IMG/VR virus record: IMGVR_UViG_3300037119_003663
Span: 1-25,668 of that record
Length of the DNA stretch: 25,668 nt
Direction: 5' to 3' (one strand)
Source: a virus
The notes below the pieces were generated by a model. The model saw only the letters and a list, made by a program, of their open reading frames with translations, did not search any database and had not been told where the DNA came from. The position numbers and the translations under genes were made by a program. Shown here in pieces: positions 2,040 to 9,005 of the stretch. Position 1 is the stretch's first letter; the number at the start of each line of letters is the position of its first letter.

Positions 2040-2416
2040 CAGCGCAAGACTCCTTCGATCGCGTCCCAGTCGGCGGGATACCAGCAATAGACTTCCACGC
2101 GGGGGACGGCGCGCAGCGCGGCCAGCCACCGCTCCTGATCGGCGCTGAGTCTGCCGGCCCCGACTTTCAACTCCGCGTAGATCAGCCTGGAAGCGCGGCA
2201 GAGGCAGAGGTCGGGATAGCCGGGCGGCGACTTGCGGGAGTCGAACGTGTGGTACACCAGGAACCCCCGGAGTTCGGCATAGCGGATCACGGAGGCCATG
2301 AATGCTTTTTCCGTGATCCCTCGCGTCGGTGTACGTACCCCTGAGACGCGCTGAGCGGGTTTCTGCGGGGCGTTGGGGGTGGGGCCTGTCTCATTTCGCA
2401 TTGCGGTGCCTTTCAC
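2039..2416 (-). CDS. VRR-NUC domain nuclease
   Basis: A 125-residue protein of the virus-type replication-repair nuclease family, a PD-(D/E)XK fold. The catalytic elements are visible: GYPDL with D69, then AELK with E82 and K84, and the usual C-terminal segment VEVYCWYPADWDAIEGVL. Family members are structure-selective DNases used in phage replication or recombination intermediates. The GTG start at 2416 overlaps the upstream methyltransferase stop (GTGA); an ATG at 2401 is an alternative start that would remove five residues. The length is typical of stand-alone phage VRR-NUC proteins. Confidence 0.88.
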   Translation of the reverse strand: MKGTAMRNETGPTPNAPQKPAQRVSGVRTPTRGITEKAFMASVIRYAELRGFLVYHTFDSRKSPPGYPDLCLCRASRLIYAELKVGAGRLSADQERWLAALRAVPRVEVYCWYPADWDAIEGVLR

Positions 2417-3753
2417 AGCCCTGGCAAGCGTCCCACCGGGAGCGCGGCGAGCCGGTCCCGCGTCCAGCCCACGGCCCGCTCATCCAGGTCGAAGCCGATC
2501 CAGCGGCGGCCCTCCTGGGCGGCGACGAAGGCGGTGGTACCGCTGCCGACGAAGGGATCGAGGACCACCTGCGGGCGGGTCGGCGTGCCGGGCGGGCAGG
2601 AGCAGCGGGGAGCCCAGCCGGTCGTCGTGGCGGGCAGTGCCGCCAGGGTGTGCGACACGCCGGGCCGGTGGACCTGCTGGCCGTTGCTCCCGGCGTGGGT
2701 GTTACGGACGCCCGCCGCCCCCCGCTCCGTCACCCGCCCCCACGCCGTGCCGCACGCGGCGCACTCGCCCGCCTCGCTCGTCCCCGCCAGCACGCACGGG
2801 CGGATCAGGGCCCGGGGGTAGGTGGCGAAGTGGTCGATACTCGTGGGCGCGCTGGGGACGGACCAGACGGTGCGGCGGTTGCGCTTCCCGCCGTGCCCAC
2901 CCAGATCGTGCAGCCCCGGTGCCTGGGAAGCGTTGTGGCCGTTGAGCGCCGAACCGCTCCCCGCCCCGGCCGCTGCCCGCACGGCCCACGGCACCGTCCG
3001 CATCTCGCGGGAGACATCCTCAGCGATCGCCGTCGCGTCGAAGTAGTAGGCCGGCCGCTTGCTGAGCAGGAACAGATATTCGTGCGAACGCGTCGGCCGG
3101 TCGGTGACGCTCTCGGGCATGGGATTGGGTTTGTGCCAGATAATATCGCTCCTGAGGATCCACCCGTCGTCCACGAGCGCGAGCGCCACGCGCCAGGGCA
3201 TGCCAAGGAGGCATTTCTCGGGATATCCCGGCGTGCCCCGACCTCGACTCTCCGGTTCAGGCTTCCCGTGAAGATTCTCCCGACCATGCACGAGTTGTCC
3301 CGGTCCCATCTGCGTGCGGAAGTTGTTGTACGAGTCGCCCAAATTTACCCAAATTGTGCCGTCGTCTTTCAGGGCGGGCCTGAGCGCGGCGAACACCGCG
3401 ACGAGGTTGGCGACGTACGCGGCGGGCGTGGCCTCCAGGCCGAGTTGGCGATCGACGCGCGTCGCGCCGCAGCGGGCGCAGGTGGCGGCGTAGGGCGTGC
3501 GGAGGTCGCCCTGCTTGTCGGTGCCGGGCGGCGTGCCGAAGTAGCGTTCGTTGAATCCGGCCTGCGTGCGCTTCGGCGGCCCCTGGTGGTCGCACGCCGC
3601 GTCCCCGCCCGCCCAGGTGCCCGTCCCGTAGTCGCGCAGGGCGTAGTAGGGCGGGCTGGTGATAATCGTCTGCACGCTGCCCGGCTCCAGCCGCCCCGCC
3701 AGTTCGCGCGCGTCGCCGGTATGGACGCGGCCCGGCGCCAGATAGTCGCCCAT
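2413..3753 (-). CDS. DNA methyltransferase, beta class (N4-cytosine or N6-adenine)
   Basis: A 446-residue S-adenosylmethionine-dependent amino-methyltransferase. Motif IV TSPPYY (residues 32-37) precedes the AdoMet-binding motif DPFVGSGTT (about 399-407), the order that defines the beta class. TSPPY is common in N4-cytosine enzymes but occurs in N6-adenine ones, so base specificity is not settled. Two CxxC pairs (CARCG, CAACG) in the variable region suggest zinc or structural sites in the target recognition area. I chose the ATG at 3753 because GGGAGGGGGC lies directly upstream; an earlier ATG at 3795 overlaps the previous stop (ATGA) and would add 14 residues. No restriction enzyme partner is obvious, so protection of phage DNA is the likely role. 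Confidence 0.9.
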   Translation of the reverse strand: MGDYLAPGRVHTGDARELAGRLEPGSVQTIITSPPYYALRDYGTGTWAGGDAACDHQGPPKRTQAGFNERYFGTPPGTDKQGDLRTPYAATCARCGATRVDRQLGLEATPAAYVANLVAVFAALRPALKDDGTIWVNLGDSYNNFRTQMGPGQLVHGRENLHGKPEPESRGRGTPGYPEKCLLGMPWRVALALVDDGWILRSDIIWHKPNPMPESVTDRPTRSHEYLFLLSKRPAYYFDATAIAEDVSREMRTVPWAVRAAAGAGSGSALNGHNASQAPGLHDLGGHGGKRNRRTVWSVPSAPTSIDHFATYPRALIRPCVLAGTSEAGECAACGTAWGRVTERGAAGVRNTHAGSNGQQVHRPGVSHTLAALPATTTGWAPRCSCPPGTPTRPQVVLDPFVGSGTTAFVAAQEGRRWIGFDLDERAVGWTRDRLAALPVGRLPGL

Positions 3754-3791: not shown

Positions 3792-4319
3792 TCATGCGCC
3801 CGCCCCGATCTGCCGCGCCGAGGGCAGCAGCCCCGCCGACTCGGCGGCCTTCGTCGTGCCGCGCCGCGCGTCGTACTCCGCGACGAAGCGCCGCCGGTAC
3901 CGCTCGCGCTCGAAGTCGGATTCGAGGGTGGCGAGCGTGTGAACGGCGGCGGTGTCGATCCCCAGGTGGTGCCGGACAACGTCCCGCGCGAGTTCGTCGG
4001 GCCAGTCGTGGGCCTTCGTGACGCCGAAGGAGTAGCGCGACAGGACGCGGGAGGAGAGCGCGGCCCAGGCCTGCTCCCCGGAGACGATCGCCCCGGCCGC
4101 CTGCTCCGCCTCGGCGGCGAAGCGCAGCAGGACGGCGATCGGCGGCAGGACGAAGGGGCGATCCCACTCCCGGAGCGCGCGGGCGCAGGCGACGGCGAAC
4201 TGCTCGGGTGGCAAGTCGTGCAGGTTCTCCCAATACACCTCAGCCTGCGCCGGGTTCGTTTCGACGGAGAAGGCTAAAATGAGCTTCGAGAGGTTGAGGT
4301 TGAATGTCTGCCGGTCCAT
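3792..4319 (-). CDS. Putative helicase loader / replisome protein (G39P-like)
   Basis: A 175-residue protein starting at 4319, overlapping the 3' end of the winged-helix replication gene by 80 bases. The N-terminal half (residues 1-75) has the pattern of phage helicase loaders of the G39P type: YWENLHDLPPEQFAVACARALREWDRPFVLPPIAVLLRFA, where short helices around a conserved W/E and a proline-rich PPIA segment recur. The C-terminal part is charged and helical. Position directly after the initiator gene, as in lambda O-P or SPP1 38-39, supports a role in loading the host DnaB helicase. The assignment rests on pattern and position and is moderate. Confidence 0.65.
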   Translation of the reverse strand: MDRQTFNLNLSKLILAFSVETNPAQAEVYWENLHDLPPEQFAVACARALREWDRPFVLPPIAVLLRFAAEAEQAAGAIVSGEQAWAALSSRVLSRYSFGVTKAHDWPDELARDVVRHHLGIDTAAVHTLATLESDFERERYRRRFVAEYDARRGTTKAAESAGLLPSARQIGAGA

Positions 4320-5079
4320 GCGGTTTCCCCCATATCGCTTCGAGCGAGCGGCGTATCTTGGCCTCCGACGCGGATTCGTGGCGGCCGTTGGGGCTGGCCC
4401 TGGCCCCGGCCGGCGGGCGCTCGCGCCGCAGCCACGTCCGCAGCGAGGCGTCGAAGTCCTTGATCGCGTCGCCCTTGGCGCGGTGATAGTCGCGCCAGTT
4501 GTCCAGGACGGGATCGAAGTCGAGCCACGGGTAGTCCGTCGCCGCCTTCTCGCGAAACACCGGGGACGGATCATACGTGGCGAGCGTGACGCGCGCACGC
4601 GTCTCTCTCTCGTTGGGTTCTTTCTTGGTTAACGTTAACTGGTTAACTAACGGTTCGGCTGAAGCCGGCTTCAGGGTTTCTGTCGCAAATTTCAGGGTTT
4701 CCGTGCCAGGAATTTCAGGGTTTCCGGCGCAAATTTCAGGGTTTGTCGGTTCTTTCACTGAAAATATTTCAGGGTTTCTCGCGGGTTTCGCTGAAATATT
4801 TTCAGGGTTTGCCAGCCCCGGCAGGGTGATCCGGTAGGCGTTGGTGTTCCCGCGCCCGCCACCCGGCACGATCGCCATCTCGCCGGCGGCGGCGAGTGAC
4901 TGGAGGAGCAGGCGGACATTGCGCTCGCTCATGCGGGCCTTCCGGGCCAGCGTCGCCACGGACGGGTAGGCCCCGTCGCCGTCGTCGTGGGCGTTGTCCG
5001 CGATCGCCAGCAGGAGGACGAGCGCGCCCCCGCTCTGCCGGGAATGCTCCCACACCGCCTGCATCGCGCGTATGCTCAT
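4240..5079 (-). CDS. Replication initiator-like winged-HTH (HTH_36) protein
   Basis: A 279-residue protein whose N-terminal domain (about 5-85) is a winged helix of the HTH_36 type: a helical MQAVWEHS segment, LLLAIADNAHDDGDGAYPSVATLARKARMSERNVRLLLQSL, then a wing around PGGGRGNTNAYRI. Residues 90-137 are low complexity with repeated NPE(I/N) units and are encoded by the iteron array described separately. The C-terminal domain contains FREKAATDYPWLDFDPVLDNWRDYHR-like and DFDASLRTWLRRE segments, common in phage replication proteins. The start at 5079 overlaps the upstream stop (ATGA). Like lambda O, it probably binds the repeats within its own gene and recruits the loader encoded next. Confidence 0.8.
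   Translation of the reverse strand: MSIRAMQAVWEHSRQSGGALVLLLAIADNAHDDGDGAYPSVATLARKARMSERNVRLLLQSLAAAGEMAIVPGGGRGNTNAYRITLPGLANPENISAKPARNPEIFSVKEPTNPEICAGNPEIPGTETLKFATETLKPASAEPLVNQLTLTKKEPNERETRARVTLATYDPSPVFREKAATDYPWLDFDPVLDNWRDYHRAKGDAIKDFDASLRTWLRRERPPAGARASPNGRHESASEAKIRRSLEAIWGKPHGPADIQPQPLEAHFSLLRRNEPGAG
4628..4810. other. Candidate phage replication origin: six iterons plus GTTAAC cluster
   Basis: Within the initiator gene, the 10-mer TTCAGGGTTT (plus strand) occurs six times, starting at 4670, 4691, 4714, 4735, 4768 and 4801; spacing 21, 23, 21, 33 and 33 bases, i.e. close to two and three helical turns. Copies 1, 5 and 6 are joined to dyads: CTGAAGCCGGCTTCAG at 4659-4674 is a perfect palindrome, and CTGAAAATATTTCAG (4758-4772) and CTGAAATATTTTCAG (4791-4805) are exact reverse complements of each other. 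Three GTTAAC sites lie at 4628, 4634 and 4642. The stretch is markedly A+T-rich against its surroundings. This is the arrangement of an iteron-type origin inside an initiator gene. Confidence 0.78.
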
Positions 5080-5636
5080 GGCCGATCCCCCGCCGCCCGC
5101 ACCTCGTCCAGGCTCGCGTAGCGGCACAGCGCGTCGTGCGCCCAATACACCATGCCGTGCCGCCCCCATTCCGGGCTGCGGTGATTCTCCGCGTTGCACA
5201 GGCGGCGGATATCCCCGCCGAACAGGCCGGTCGGGCACGGCCACGGTTCCAGCGGGCGCCGATCGGCCGCGCTGTCCCTGGTGTGCAGGAACAGCAGGTA
5301 CACCGGGTGCGGCCAGCCGGCGGCGATCGCCAGGTACTGGTAGTAGTGGTGCACATCGATCCCCGTCGTCCACCGCCCGGTCTTCCGGTGCCAGGAGAAC
5401 ACGCCCTTGTGCTTCGCCTCGATCCAGAAGACGCGCCCGCCCTTGAGGCCGAGCATGTCCGGCGCGACGATCTCCCGGCGCGGCGCGAGGAGGCGCGGCC
5501 CCTTGCCGGTGTCGATCTCCGTCTCGTAGACGGGCAGGACGGCGCAGCCGCGCGCCTCGCGCAACCAGCGCGCGATCGCCGACTCGCCCACCCGGCCCCG
5601 CGCCAGGGTGGCGGCGAACGTCTCAGCGCGCGCCAT
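5076..5636 (-). CDS. PD-(D/E)XK family nuclease
   Basis: A 186-residue protein with the catalytic signature of the PD-(D/E)XK superfamily: GRVGESAIARWL with E18, APDML with D60, then FWIEAKHK with E73 and K75, and a following aromatic segment HHYYQYLAIAAGW. Such phage proteins often act as Holliday-junction or structure-specific nucleases, or as Cas4-like exonucleases; no iron-sulphur cysteine set is seen, so Cas4 is disfavoured. The ATG at 5636 overlaps the end of the adenine methyltransferase by 14 bases, and its stop overlaps the initiator start. The context suggests processing of replication or recombination intermediates; substrate unknown. Confidence 0.8.
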   Translation of the reverse strand: MARAETFAATLARGRVGESAIARWLREARGCAVLPVYETEIDTGKGPRLLAPRREIVAPDMLGLKGGRVFWIEAKHKGVFSWHRKTGRWTTGIDVHHYYQYLAIAAGWPHPVYLLFLHTRDSAADRRPLEPWPCPTGLFGGDIRRLCNAENHRSPEWGRHGMVYWAHDALCRYASLDEVRAAGDRP

Positions 5637-6324
5637 CCCACACCTCGCGCGTCGCCAGCACCGCCCCGAACCGCCCGAAGATCGCCGCGAACCGATCGAT
5701 CGCCGGGCCGAAGTAGACGATCGCGTTGGAGTGCGTCGGCTGCCCGGCCTCGGTCTCCTCGTTGTAGAACCTGATCCGGTTGTCCGGGAAGCAGATCGGG
5801 TAGCGCTTCAGCGGCGCGAACCACTGATTGCCGGTGACGGCATTGACGAGCAGCAGCGCCTCGGTCACGTCGCCGGCCGCGTGCCGTTCGATCAGCGCGC
5901 GGCTCCAGCGCGCCTGGTTGCTCTCGCCGTCGCGCAGGCCGTAGGGCGGGTTGAGCCACACCCGCCCCGCCCACGGCCGCGCCAGCCCGTCGTCATCCTC
6001 GGTGAAGAAGCGGGCGGCGCGGACGATCCGGTTGGCGAATTCCTCGCTGGCAGGATCGAGATCGATCCCGCCCATGAGTTCGTGCGCGGCGTCGAGGAAG
6101 GGGGCCGGCGTGAACCAGCGATCGTTATCGGACTGGTTGATCAGCTGGTGGTTCTCAAGCGGCTGCGCGTAGGGATCGCGCTCCTGGCGCACCGCCAGGC
6201 GCAGCGTTTGCCTCGTCCAGCCCTCGGCGATTGCCCGGTCGAGCAGGCGGTCCTGTTCCCCGTCATCGAGCGCGGCCACCTCGGCGTGGAACGAGAAGCC
6301 GAGTGTGTTCCGCCGGCGGAACAA
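5623..6324 (-). CDS. Phage N6-adenine DNA methyltransferase (Dam-like, PF05869 type), probably N-terminally displaced
   Basis: The catalytic domain carries the phage adenine methyltransferase pattern: DRWFTPAPFLDAAHELMGGIDLDPAS (residues about 68-93), NRIVRAARFFTEDDDGLARPW, and the motif IV tetrad NPPY at 125-128. The first 45 residues (RRRNTLGFSFHAEVAALDDGEQDRLLDRA) are the tail end of a longer N-terminal domain usual in this protein type. The frame remains open upstream as AAKYVCGKFALF but meets a stop at 6412-6414, and the only start near this point is a TTG at 6324 without a clear ribosome site. The missing beginning appears in a different frame at 6263-6484. The enzyme may be expressed by translational coupling, or the gene may be frameshifted or partly deleted. 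Confidence 0.82.
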   Translation of the reverse strand: MFRRRNTLGFSFHAEVAALDDGEQDRLLDRAIAEGWTRQTLRLAVRQERDPYAQPLENHQLINQSDNDRWFTPAPFLDAAHELMGGIDLDPASEEFANRIVRAARFFTEDDDGLARPWAGRVWLNPPYGLRDGESNQARWSRALIERHAAGDVTEALLLVNAVTGNQWFAPLKRYPICFPDNRIRFYNEETEAGQPTHSNAIVYFGPAIDRFAAIFGRFGAVLATREVWDGAR

Positions 6325-7755: not shown

Positions 7756-8079
7756 CTAACTGCAATCGTCGCCGTAGACGCGCGACAACACGTCAACCAT
7801 CCGCTCCAACTTCGTCCGGGGTTTCCCCGCCCTGGCCTGCGCTAACGCGGCCCGCAGTTGGCGCGTGCGCCCCTCCTCCGCGAGCAGCCGCGCCCTGAGC
7901 CAGACGTTCTCGGCCAGCAACTCGCCCACCTGCGCGGACAGGTCGTGCGAGGCGTGGATCGCGGCGTCCAGAAGCCCTTCGACCGCCAGGCAATCGTGCG
8001 AGCCGACCGCCTCCAGCCAGGGGACCAATGCGGCCTGCGCGGCGACCTTGCCCATGTCCCTGGAGTAGTCGTGTGTCAT
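7756..8079 (-). CDS. Small helical/coiled-coil protein, 107 aa
   Basis: No family recognised. The start ATG at 8079 overlaps the dcm stop (ATGA). Residues about 10-95 are predicted almost entirely helical, with leucine/alanine heptad character in LSAQVGELLAENVWLRARLLAEEGRTRQLRAALAQ, suggesting a coiled coil and oligomerisation. The C-terminus is basic (GKPRTKLERMVDVLSRVYGDD). Its coupling to the cytosine methyltransferase suggests joint expression; function unknown. Confidence 0.68.
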   Translation of the reverse strand: MTHDYSRDMGKVAAQAALVPWLEAVGSHDCLAVEGLLDAAIHASHDLSAQVGELLAENVWLRARLLAEEGRTRQLRAALAQARAGKPRTKLERMVDVLSRVYGDDCS

Positions 8080-9005
8080 GATGCCGCCTCCACGATCCGC
8101 CGCCCCAACCATTCCGCAATTTGAGGAACTACGGCGTTGCCGAGTCCTCTAAGTCGGTCCACCCGAGCGGGAACCCCATCAGCCACTCGACCCACGTCGG
8201 GTTCAGTTGCCCACTGGCCTTGCCCCGCGCGGCAACTTCGTTCAAAGGTCGCGAGTTCTTCGCGTGCGTCTCCTCCGAAGCATGGCCCGACCGCCAGGGA
8301 CTGGCGGTCGGGGTCGGCCACCGTTCCTGCTCGATCACCGCCACGAGCAGGGGTGTCCCGCCCGGTGAGGCGTTCGCCCCGCGCTTGACTTTGGCGTAGG
8401 TGTGGCGATCCCGCGCGGTCGGCGTGGGCCACAGCGCCACCGCCCACCCGAGTTTGTTCGGCTTCATCCTGCCGTCCCCGCTCGCGGTCAGCGTTGTGTC
8501 GTTCGCCGCCTTGGACGCACCGGGCGTGGGCCACAATGAAAACCCGGTCACGGATGTGCGGGGCACCAACGGCGGCAGCGGGAATGCAGTCCCATTCCGC
8601 GTCATACCCGCTCGCGGCCAGGTCGCCGAGTACGGTGCCCGCTCCCCGCCCAAGGAGTGCTGCCACGTTCTCCACGAGGACGAAGTGGGGTCGTAGGACG
8701 CGCACGAGCCGGATGTACTCGGACCACAGGCCCGACCGCTCCCCGCCGATCCCGGCGCGCTTCCCGGCGTCGCTGATGTCCTGGCAGGGGAAGCCGCCGC
8801 AGATGAGATCGACTCGTTCGAGTTCGCCACCCGTCACCTCCCGGATATCCCCGAACTTCGGCACGTCGGGCCAGTGCTTCGCCAGCACGCGGCGGCAGTA
8901 CTCGTCTATCTCCACCTGCCAGCGGCAGGCCATGCCCGCCCGTTCCAGCCCGAGATCGAGGCCCCCGATCCCCGCGAACAGGGAGCCGAACGTGAGCGCG
9001 CCCAT
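8076..9005 (-). CDS. dcm: DNA (cytosine-5)-methyltransferase
   Basis: A 309-residue C5-cytosine methyltransferase. Motif I FGSLFAGIGGLDLGLERAG (6-24) binds AdoMet; motif IV GGFPCQDIS has catalytic C74; motif VI is VENV (111-114); motif VIII is IRDRVFIVAHA (151-161); motif X is GNAVVPQIAEWLGRRI (289-304). The target-recognition region (about 162-265) is hydrophilic with VAHADR/VADPDR repeats. The start follows GGAGGTGAGGC. There is no cognate restriction gene, so the enzyme is probably an orphan that protects phage DNA. Most of its length is also open in a second frame on the same strand with recognisable protein features (separate entry), which probably explains the odd composition of the recognition region. 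Confidence 0.93.
   Translation of the reverse strand: MGALTFGSLFAGIGGLDLGLERAGMACRWQVEIDEYCRRVLAKHWPDVPKFGDIREVTGGELERVDLICGGFPCQDISDAGKRAGIGGERSGLWSEYIRLVRVLRPHFVLVENVAALLGRGAGTVLGDLAASGYDAEWDCIPAAAVGAPHIRDRVFIVAHARCVQGGERHNADRERGRQDEAEQTRVGGGAVAHADRAGSPHLRQSQARGERLTGRDTPARGGDRAGTVADPDRQSLAVGPCFGGDAREELATFERSCRAGQGQWATEPDVGRVADGVPARVDRLRGLGNAVVPQIAEWLGRRIVEAAS
8129..8830 (-). CDS. Overprinted protein embedded in dcm (WPTPTA-repeat family)
   Basis: Entirely inside the methyltransferase gene, on the same strand but in another frame, a 233-residue frame from GTG 8830 shows a protein pattern I recognise from phage and bacterial proteins near cytosine methyltransferases: SSWRTWQHSL, YSATWPRAGMTRNGTAF, LVPRTS, repeated LWPTPTARD / RWPTPTAS, HAKNSRPLNE and a conserved end LNPTWVEWLMGFPLGWT. 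The VADPDR-type repeats of Dcm are the same DNA read as WPTPTA here, and GGFPCQDIS is read as SPARTS. Long open length, plus several separate conserved motifs, argue against chance, but expression is unproven; no strong ribosome site is visible at 8830. It might act as an accessory or alternative target-recognition protein; function unknown. Confidence 0.55.
   Translation of the reverse strand: MANSNESISSAAASPARTSATPGSAPGSAGSGRACGPSTSGSCASYDPTSSSWRTWQHSLGGERAPYSATWPRAGMTRNGTAFPLPPLVPRTSVTGFSLWPTPGASKAANDTTLTASGDGRMKPNKLGWAVALWPTPTARDRHTYAKVKRGANASPGGTPLLVAVIEQERWPTPTASPWRSGHASEETHAKNSRPLNEVAARGKASGQLNPTWVEWLMGFPLGWTDLEDSATP

Follow-up and report, generated by a model that had tools for sequence, protein, structure and literature searches.

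A probable origin inside the initiator gene

Judging from its sequence, the stretch of viral DNA analysed here (25,668 bases, hereafter the window) very probably carries an origin of the lambda ori type, made up of iterons and an unwinding or loading element and embedded in the gene of an HTH_36 initiator. Specifically, positions 4609-4810, inside the gene of the phage's own initiator, would be its vegetative replication origin. The features concerned, all on the minus strand, are the following:

4240..5079, minus: initiator gene, 279 aa, HTH_36 / phrog_1032 'replication initiation protein', from profile matches
4810..5079, minus: winged-HTH codons, residues 1-90; AlphaFold2 pLDDT about 84-98, HTH_36 match, winged-helix matches over residues 2-90
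4801..4810, minus: iteron 1, AAACCCTGAA, read as NPE; left half of the dyad at 4791-4805
4768..4777, minus: iteron 2, AAACCCTGAA, read as NPE; left half of the dyad at 4758-4772
4735..4744, minus: iteron 3, AAACCCTGAA, read as NPE; extended flank ATTTGCG, common to iteron 5 and the related locus L070
4714..4723, minus: iteron 4, AAACCCTGAA, read as NPE
4691..4700, minus: iteron 5, AAACCCTGAA, shifted frame, ETLK; extended flank ATTTGCGACA
4670..4679, minus: iteron 6, AAACCCTGAA, shifted frame, ETLK; within the 16-bp dyad at 4659-4674
4609..4656, minus: proposed unwinding/loading element; four AACC words 11/14/11 nt apart (5' ends 4655, 4644, 4630, 4619), containing three GTTAAC
4240..4599, minus: codons for residues 161-279; AlphaFold2 gives a confident helical part at about 171-220, pLDDT above 90
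3792..4319, minus: downstream gene, 175 aa; helicase-loader role assumed from position only

The iteron reads TTCAGGGTTT on the plus strand and AAACCCTGAA on the gene (minus) strand. Its six exact copies start at 4670, 4691, 4714, 4735, 4768 and 4801 (array 4670-4810) with a spacing of 21/23/21/33/33, to the base as the first-pass annotation of this DNA had described them, and no further copy was found in the window with one mismatch allowed. The chance expectation is 0.28 copies, and six were reached in 0 of 100 shuffles. Three copies are tied to dyads, as had also been noticed: the 15-bp CTGAAAATATTTCAG (4791-4805) and CTGAAATATTTTCAG (4758-4772) are each the reverse complement of the other, and the third is the 16-bp CTGAAGCCGGCTTCAG (4659-4674). 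The extended flank AAATTTGCG is likewise present at two copies, 4691 and 4735. Counting against an origin, clear dyads occur at three of the six iterons only, and the two 33-bp spacings exceed the usual 21-23.

The array was said to lie in an A+T-rich island, which both profiles bear out: GC drops to 46-55% over 4550-4849 versus about 70% in the flanks, and this segment contains two of the three least stable 60-bp stretches of the window along with its most A+T-rich 50-mers. Positions 1-400, at the contig end, are G-rich, repetitive and low in complexity.

The initiator matches HTH_36 (PF13730) over residues 16-66 with 29.7 bits, above the Pfam cutoff of 25, and phrog_1032 over residues 1-234 (E=6.7e-22), with its recognition helix at about residues 52-65. 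Residues 91-160, whose codons are precisely those of the iterons and of the tract that follows, reach a pLDDT of about 40-52 in the AlphaFold2 model and are probably a disordered linker; GC3 falls from 0.94 in the winged-HTH codons to 0.40 in the iteron linker. The placement of the array in the low-complexity linker of an HTH_36 protein, proposed earlier, agrees with these results. Since a PDB fold search with this protein returned general winged-helix matches only, none with E <=0.001, no structural family is claimed.

The downstream gene had been called loader-like, a description that we could not confirm. Its 175-aa protein gave weak profile matches only, the best two to families of unknown function and none to a loader, and no relatives of it were found, so that a loader role stays an assumption. 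Among the relatives, L162 has an annotated Replication P gene and L160 an annotated DNA helicase. The downstream frame starts at 4319 and shares its first 80 bases (4240-4319) with the end of the initiator gene; its true start may lie further in. Elsewhere in the window we noted a predicted N6/N4 DNA methyltransferase gene (2413-3693), a Dam-like gene (5623-6324) and a third frame that resembles a cytosine methyltransferase by eye (8076-9005).

Iterons recur at the same place in related initiators

A DNA-only scan for two AAACCCTGAA words 6-30 bases apart, run over viral contigs and bacterial genomes with the protein ignored, recovered HTH_36 initiators (L010/L012/L028, L013, L015/L017, L022 and L070). 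In these the array lies directly behind the winged-HTH codons and the word is read as NPE or ETLN, depending on the frame; in L022 it sits just beyond a short ORF. The 10-mer is therefore found in the same linker of other HTH_36 initiators, where the first-pass annotation had suggested searching for it. When three CCCTGAA words were required, 22 of 98 loci had them in family ORFs, mostly at the same linker position, and several of the CCCTGAA loci showed a full dyad, CCCTGAAC-N3-GTTCA. The counts from these iteron scans are to be read as enrichment and not as an independent test, because the hidden Markov model was built from family members of which some had been found via the iteron itself. 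Many loci of the iteron scan were discarded as false positives, for example the collagen-like GFQGFQ repeats of L003, L020 and L031. Paired AAACCCTGAA words were also seen in contigs without a family initiator, namely L034, L035, L057, L091 and other Bacteroidota loci.

Homologues were also chosen by protein only. The window initiator alone retrieved no relatives from viral contigs, and the closer pair P0001/L070 was the query that yielded them; in all, 93 homologues (window, phage records and viral contigs) were reduced to 39 representatives at 60% identity. Three or more exact copies of an 8-mer occurred in 33 of the 39 representatives versus 1 of 34 control ORFs, the controls being the longest ORFs of the same loci, and four or more in 24/39 versus 1/34 (Fisher p=5e-8). 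Codon shuffling was exceeded at p<=0.01 in 21 of the 39. Most of the 33 arrays start near the end of the winged-HTH codons; in one of them (L153) the repeated word is the 11-mer described below. Six of the 39 homologues lack such an array by this exact-match test, which counts against the origin reading.

The iteron word is specific to the subfamily (AACCCTGAA, AACCCGGAA, AACCCGGCA, CAGGGGTGACA, AAGGGTGCA, CCCCCGAAG and ACCCCCGCA), and the family includes the E. coli K-12 phage mEp013 (L157), with the in-gene iteron GGTAGTGTC. The excess of DNA self-match over codon-shuffled versions is greatest at 21-23 nt within the array and at 10-12 nt behind it, and A+T content exceeds the mean of the gene by 12-16 points between +20 and +60 past the last iteron. 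This two-part layout, iterons with a tract behind them, recurs in dozens of distantly related phages. In L336, L338, L340 and L364 the spacing is 17 bases at first and then 21-23, as if two sub-arrays had been joined.

Iteron similarity followed the similarity of the recognition helix (rho 0.41) more closely than that of the rest of the domain (0.21-0.28) or of the C-terminus (-0.03), and a partial Mantel test given residues 1-38 yielded 0.36 (p=0.001), with relatedness among the homologues only partly controlled. Because iteron similarity tracks the recognition helix, these sequence comparisons point to the winged HTH as the reader of the iterons; the correlation is no proof, since shared ancestry is controlled in part only.

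A second element of AACC words spaced about 11 bp behind the iterons

In many homologues the iterons are directly followed by AACCRTCA-like words about 11 bases apart. Two or more copies were found in 19 of the 39 homologues, and they lie behind the iterons in 16 of the 17 genes that have both. Scanning for three AACCRTCA words, again with the protein ignored, returned at least 119 loci; in 87 of the 119 listed the array lies in a family ORF, and the remaining listed loci were mostly genes cut at a contig end or low-complexity repeats. Among the matches listed, 106 array placements were on the coding strand and 0 on the other, and 54 of 56 dereplicated family genes had an iteron array within 170 bases upstream (shuffled sequence, 0/56), typically with iterons spaced 17 or 21-23 bases. 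In the family profile, A+T content is maximal over the 11-mer element.

The tract at 4609-4656 of the window appears, from its sequence, to be a degenerate counterpart of this array. Its AACC words (p=0.003) and its A+T content (p=5e-5) are above what the protein and local codon usage need, and low duplex stability sets in from 4604; counting against the origin reading, the AACC array of the window contains no match to AACCRTCA. The three GTTAAC sites reported earlier are present (4628, 4634 and 4642), but are better read as part of the degenerate family array than as sites of their own.

Three longer reading frames that do not match the model of the family winged HTH (L366, L390 and L435) also contain the array, which reads there, for example, NHQATIKQPSSNHQ; the AACCRTCA element may reach beyond HTH_36 initiators. 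L341 has seven exact GAACCATC upstream of its 11-mer array, spaced 15/15/15/15/23/22, as though the iteron there were the 11-mer word itself.

Tentatively, and with the balance tipping slightly towards doubt, we suggest that the AACCRTCA array could be an undescribed and widespread element of phage in-gene origins, active in strand-specific unwinding or helicase loading and conserved above the iterons, which would force NHQ, TIK and EPS into the linkers of divergent initiators. Sequence alone would then be enough to find origins and to match iterons with a recognition helix.

Alternative roles of the repeats

The repeats might instead be operators at which the initiator acts as repressor of its own gene or operon, with no origin involved. 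Autoregulation is frequent among winged-HTH proteins, and the fold matches of the window initiator's winged helix include LexA and MarR-type repressors. These sites, however, come after the codons of the DNA-binding domain, some 270-410 bases into the gene, in a position that agrees with ori-lambda; moreover they are followed across the family by the A+T-rich 11-bp array, and the protein matches replication-initiation families, which together make operators improbable. Still less probable is a packaging, recombination or partition site that lies in the initiator gene by chance: direct-repeat arrays are generally known to occur at such sites too, but this one goes with an initiator family in phages that differ widely, its iteron sequence tracks the initiator's recognition helix, and no terminase or partition gene was recognised beside it.

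Whether the repeat belongs to the DNA or to the protein can be read from the frames and codons. In the window gene the iteron is read as NPE in four copies and, one frame over, as ETLK in two (4670 and 4691), so the earlier statement that the array is encoded as NPE repeats applies to the four and not to the two. Here and in relatives the DNA word is kept while frame and peptide change (NPE, ETLK, ETLN). All four NPE of the window gene use AAC CCT GAA, expected at 0.7% each from the codon usage of neighbouring genes, and synonymous-codon shuffling of this gene gave a mean of 2.4 copies of the repeated 8-mer versus six (p=0.005, the smallest value reachable with 200 shuffles). Two or more reading frames are used in 22 of the 33 iteron arrays of the family, and two or three by the 11-mer array in 48 of the 56 dereplicated genes among the matches listed; in L230 three 11-mer copies read NHQ, TIK and EPS in succession.

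On this evidence from frames and codons the iteron array is a DNA signal, not a protein repeat, and the linker peptide is whatever the DNA sites encode, conservation being independent of frame. The suggestion that the linker exists to carry the DNA sites gains support from the word kept across frames, the rare codons and the failure of codon shuffling; the first-pass annotation would have been contradicted by homologues that keep NPE through synonymous codons and lose the 10-mer, and the opposite was found, the word being kept while the peptide varies. The weakest alternative, that NPE/ETLK or EPS were selected as a flexible or interacting peptide with the DNA repeat as a by-product, has on its side a linker predicted to be disordered and low in complexity and the single-frame arrays of a minority of homologues (11/33 iteron arrays, 8/56 11-mer arrays), but is very hard to reconcile with the two or three frames of most arrays, copy numbers mostly unreproduced by codon shuffling, the rare NPE codons of the window gene and an 11-mer that changes its reading in successive frames of one gene.

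Proposed mechanism and significance

In the origin that we favour, the N-terminal winged helix would bind the AAACCCTGAA iterons, probably as dimers on the copies with dyads. The nucleoprotein complex would then melt the adjoining A+T-rich tract of AACC words spaced ~11 bp, as its position, its low stability and the lambda precedent suggest, and the melted tract might, more speculatively, offer strand-specific sites for the initiator or for helicase loading.

To our knowledge, few phage origins have been mapped experimentally. If the layout holds, the initiator gene itself would show where the origin lies in many phages with an HTH_36 initiator, and each would pair its own iteron with a recognition helix that fits it. 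The odd, repetitive stretches in the linkers of these proteins would be explained as DNA sites and not as protein motifs. The 11-mer that they share would add a common second element, and silent mutations could test whether it serves in melting, single-strand binding or helicase loading.

In the open-access PMC literature we found no description of the origins of the HTH_36 family, of their iterons or of the 11-mer element, in line with the earlier remark that no described origin with this iteron is known; absence there is no proof of novelty. As far as that literature shows, the iteron is new, as are the pattern seen across the family and the 11-mer element; the principle of an origin in the initiator gene is already known from lambda. 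In one paper, the matches to AACCATCA that we looked at were sequences preceding start codons and were set aside.

Comparison with known origins

Weak structural matches of the window protein include 4pql (DNA-binding protein, N-terminal domain) and 5kbj (Rep-DNA complex), which we take to be staphylococcal RepA; RepA_N is not among its Pfam matches up to E=1. The staphylococcal plasmids pSK1 and pSK41 and other theta plasmids belong to a category with the origin inside rep and recognisable iterons (PMC3155836). The oriV of repABC lies inside repC, and silent mutations that lower its A+T content abolish replication (PMC3155836), a precedent for testing an in-gene origin by recoding. Unlike the window gene, repC has no iterons (PMC3155836); RP-C has no match in the window protein and weak ones, below the cutoff, in the relatives L150 and L170. 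According to its title, PMC4081077 describes sequence-specific binding of Rep proteins to single strands from the A+T-rich region of a plasmid origin, which is a precedent for what we propose the 11-mers do.

Among named phages, the initiators of Bordetella phage PHB09, Pseudomonas phage D14E, EBPR podovirus 2 and Microcystis phage Mvi-Yong1342-1 belong to the same family and have in-gene iterons with AACC 11-mers downstream. Their iterons differ from that of the window (AAAGGGTGCA, ACCCCCGCAG, AAACCCGGAA and CCCCCGAAGC), and these repeats are not among the listed annotated features of the four phages.

The closest known system is lambda ori / O, with which the Stx phages P27 and 933W are grouped. 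As in the window, the iterons of lambda lie in the initiator gene, between its DNA-binding and C-terminal parts, and are followed by an A+T-rich tract (PMC7466680). The four annotated iterons of lambda O are at gene offsets 348-432 with a spacing of 20/24/23, so that the order of the layout is the same and the position similar. Lambda O and the HTH_36 initiator family have the PHROG profiles 391, 678 and 345 in common, and the structure search lists protein O of phage Min27. The lambda iteron, however, is unrelated to that of the window, and no counterpart of the 11-mer was seen by eye behind the lambda iterons. Of the lambda-O-like origin proposed earlier, the layout is supported. In Pfam, lambda O is PF04492 (Phage_rep_O) and the window protein HTH_36 only; because the Pfam families differ, our claim is that this origin works like lambda ori, not that its initiator is a lambda O.
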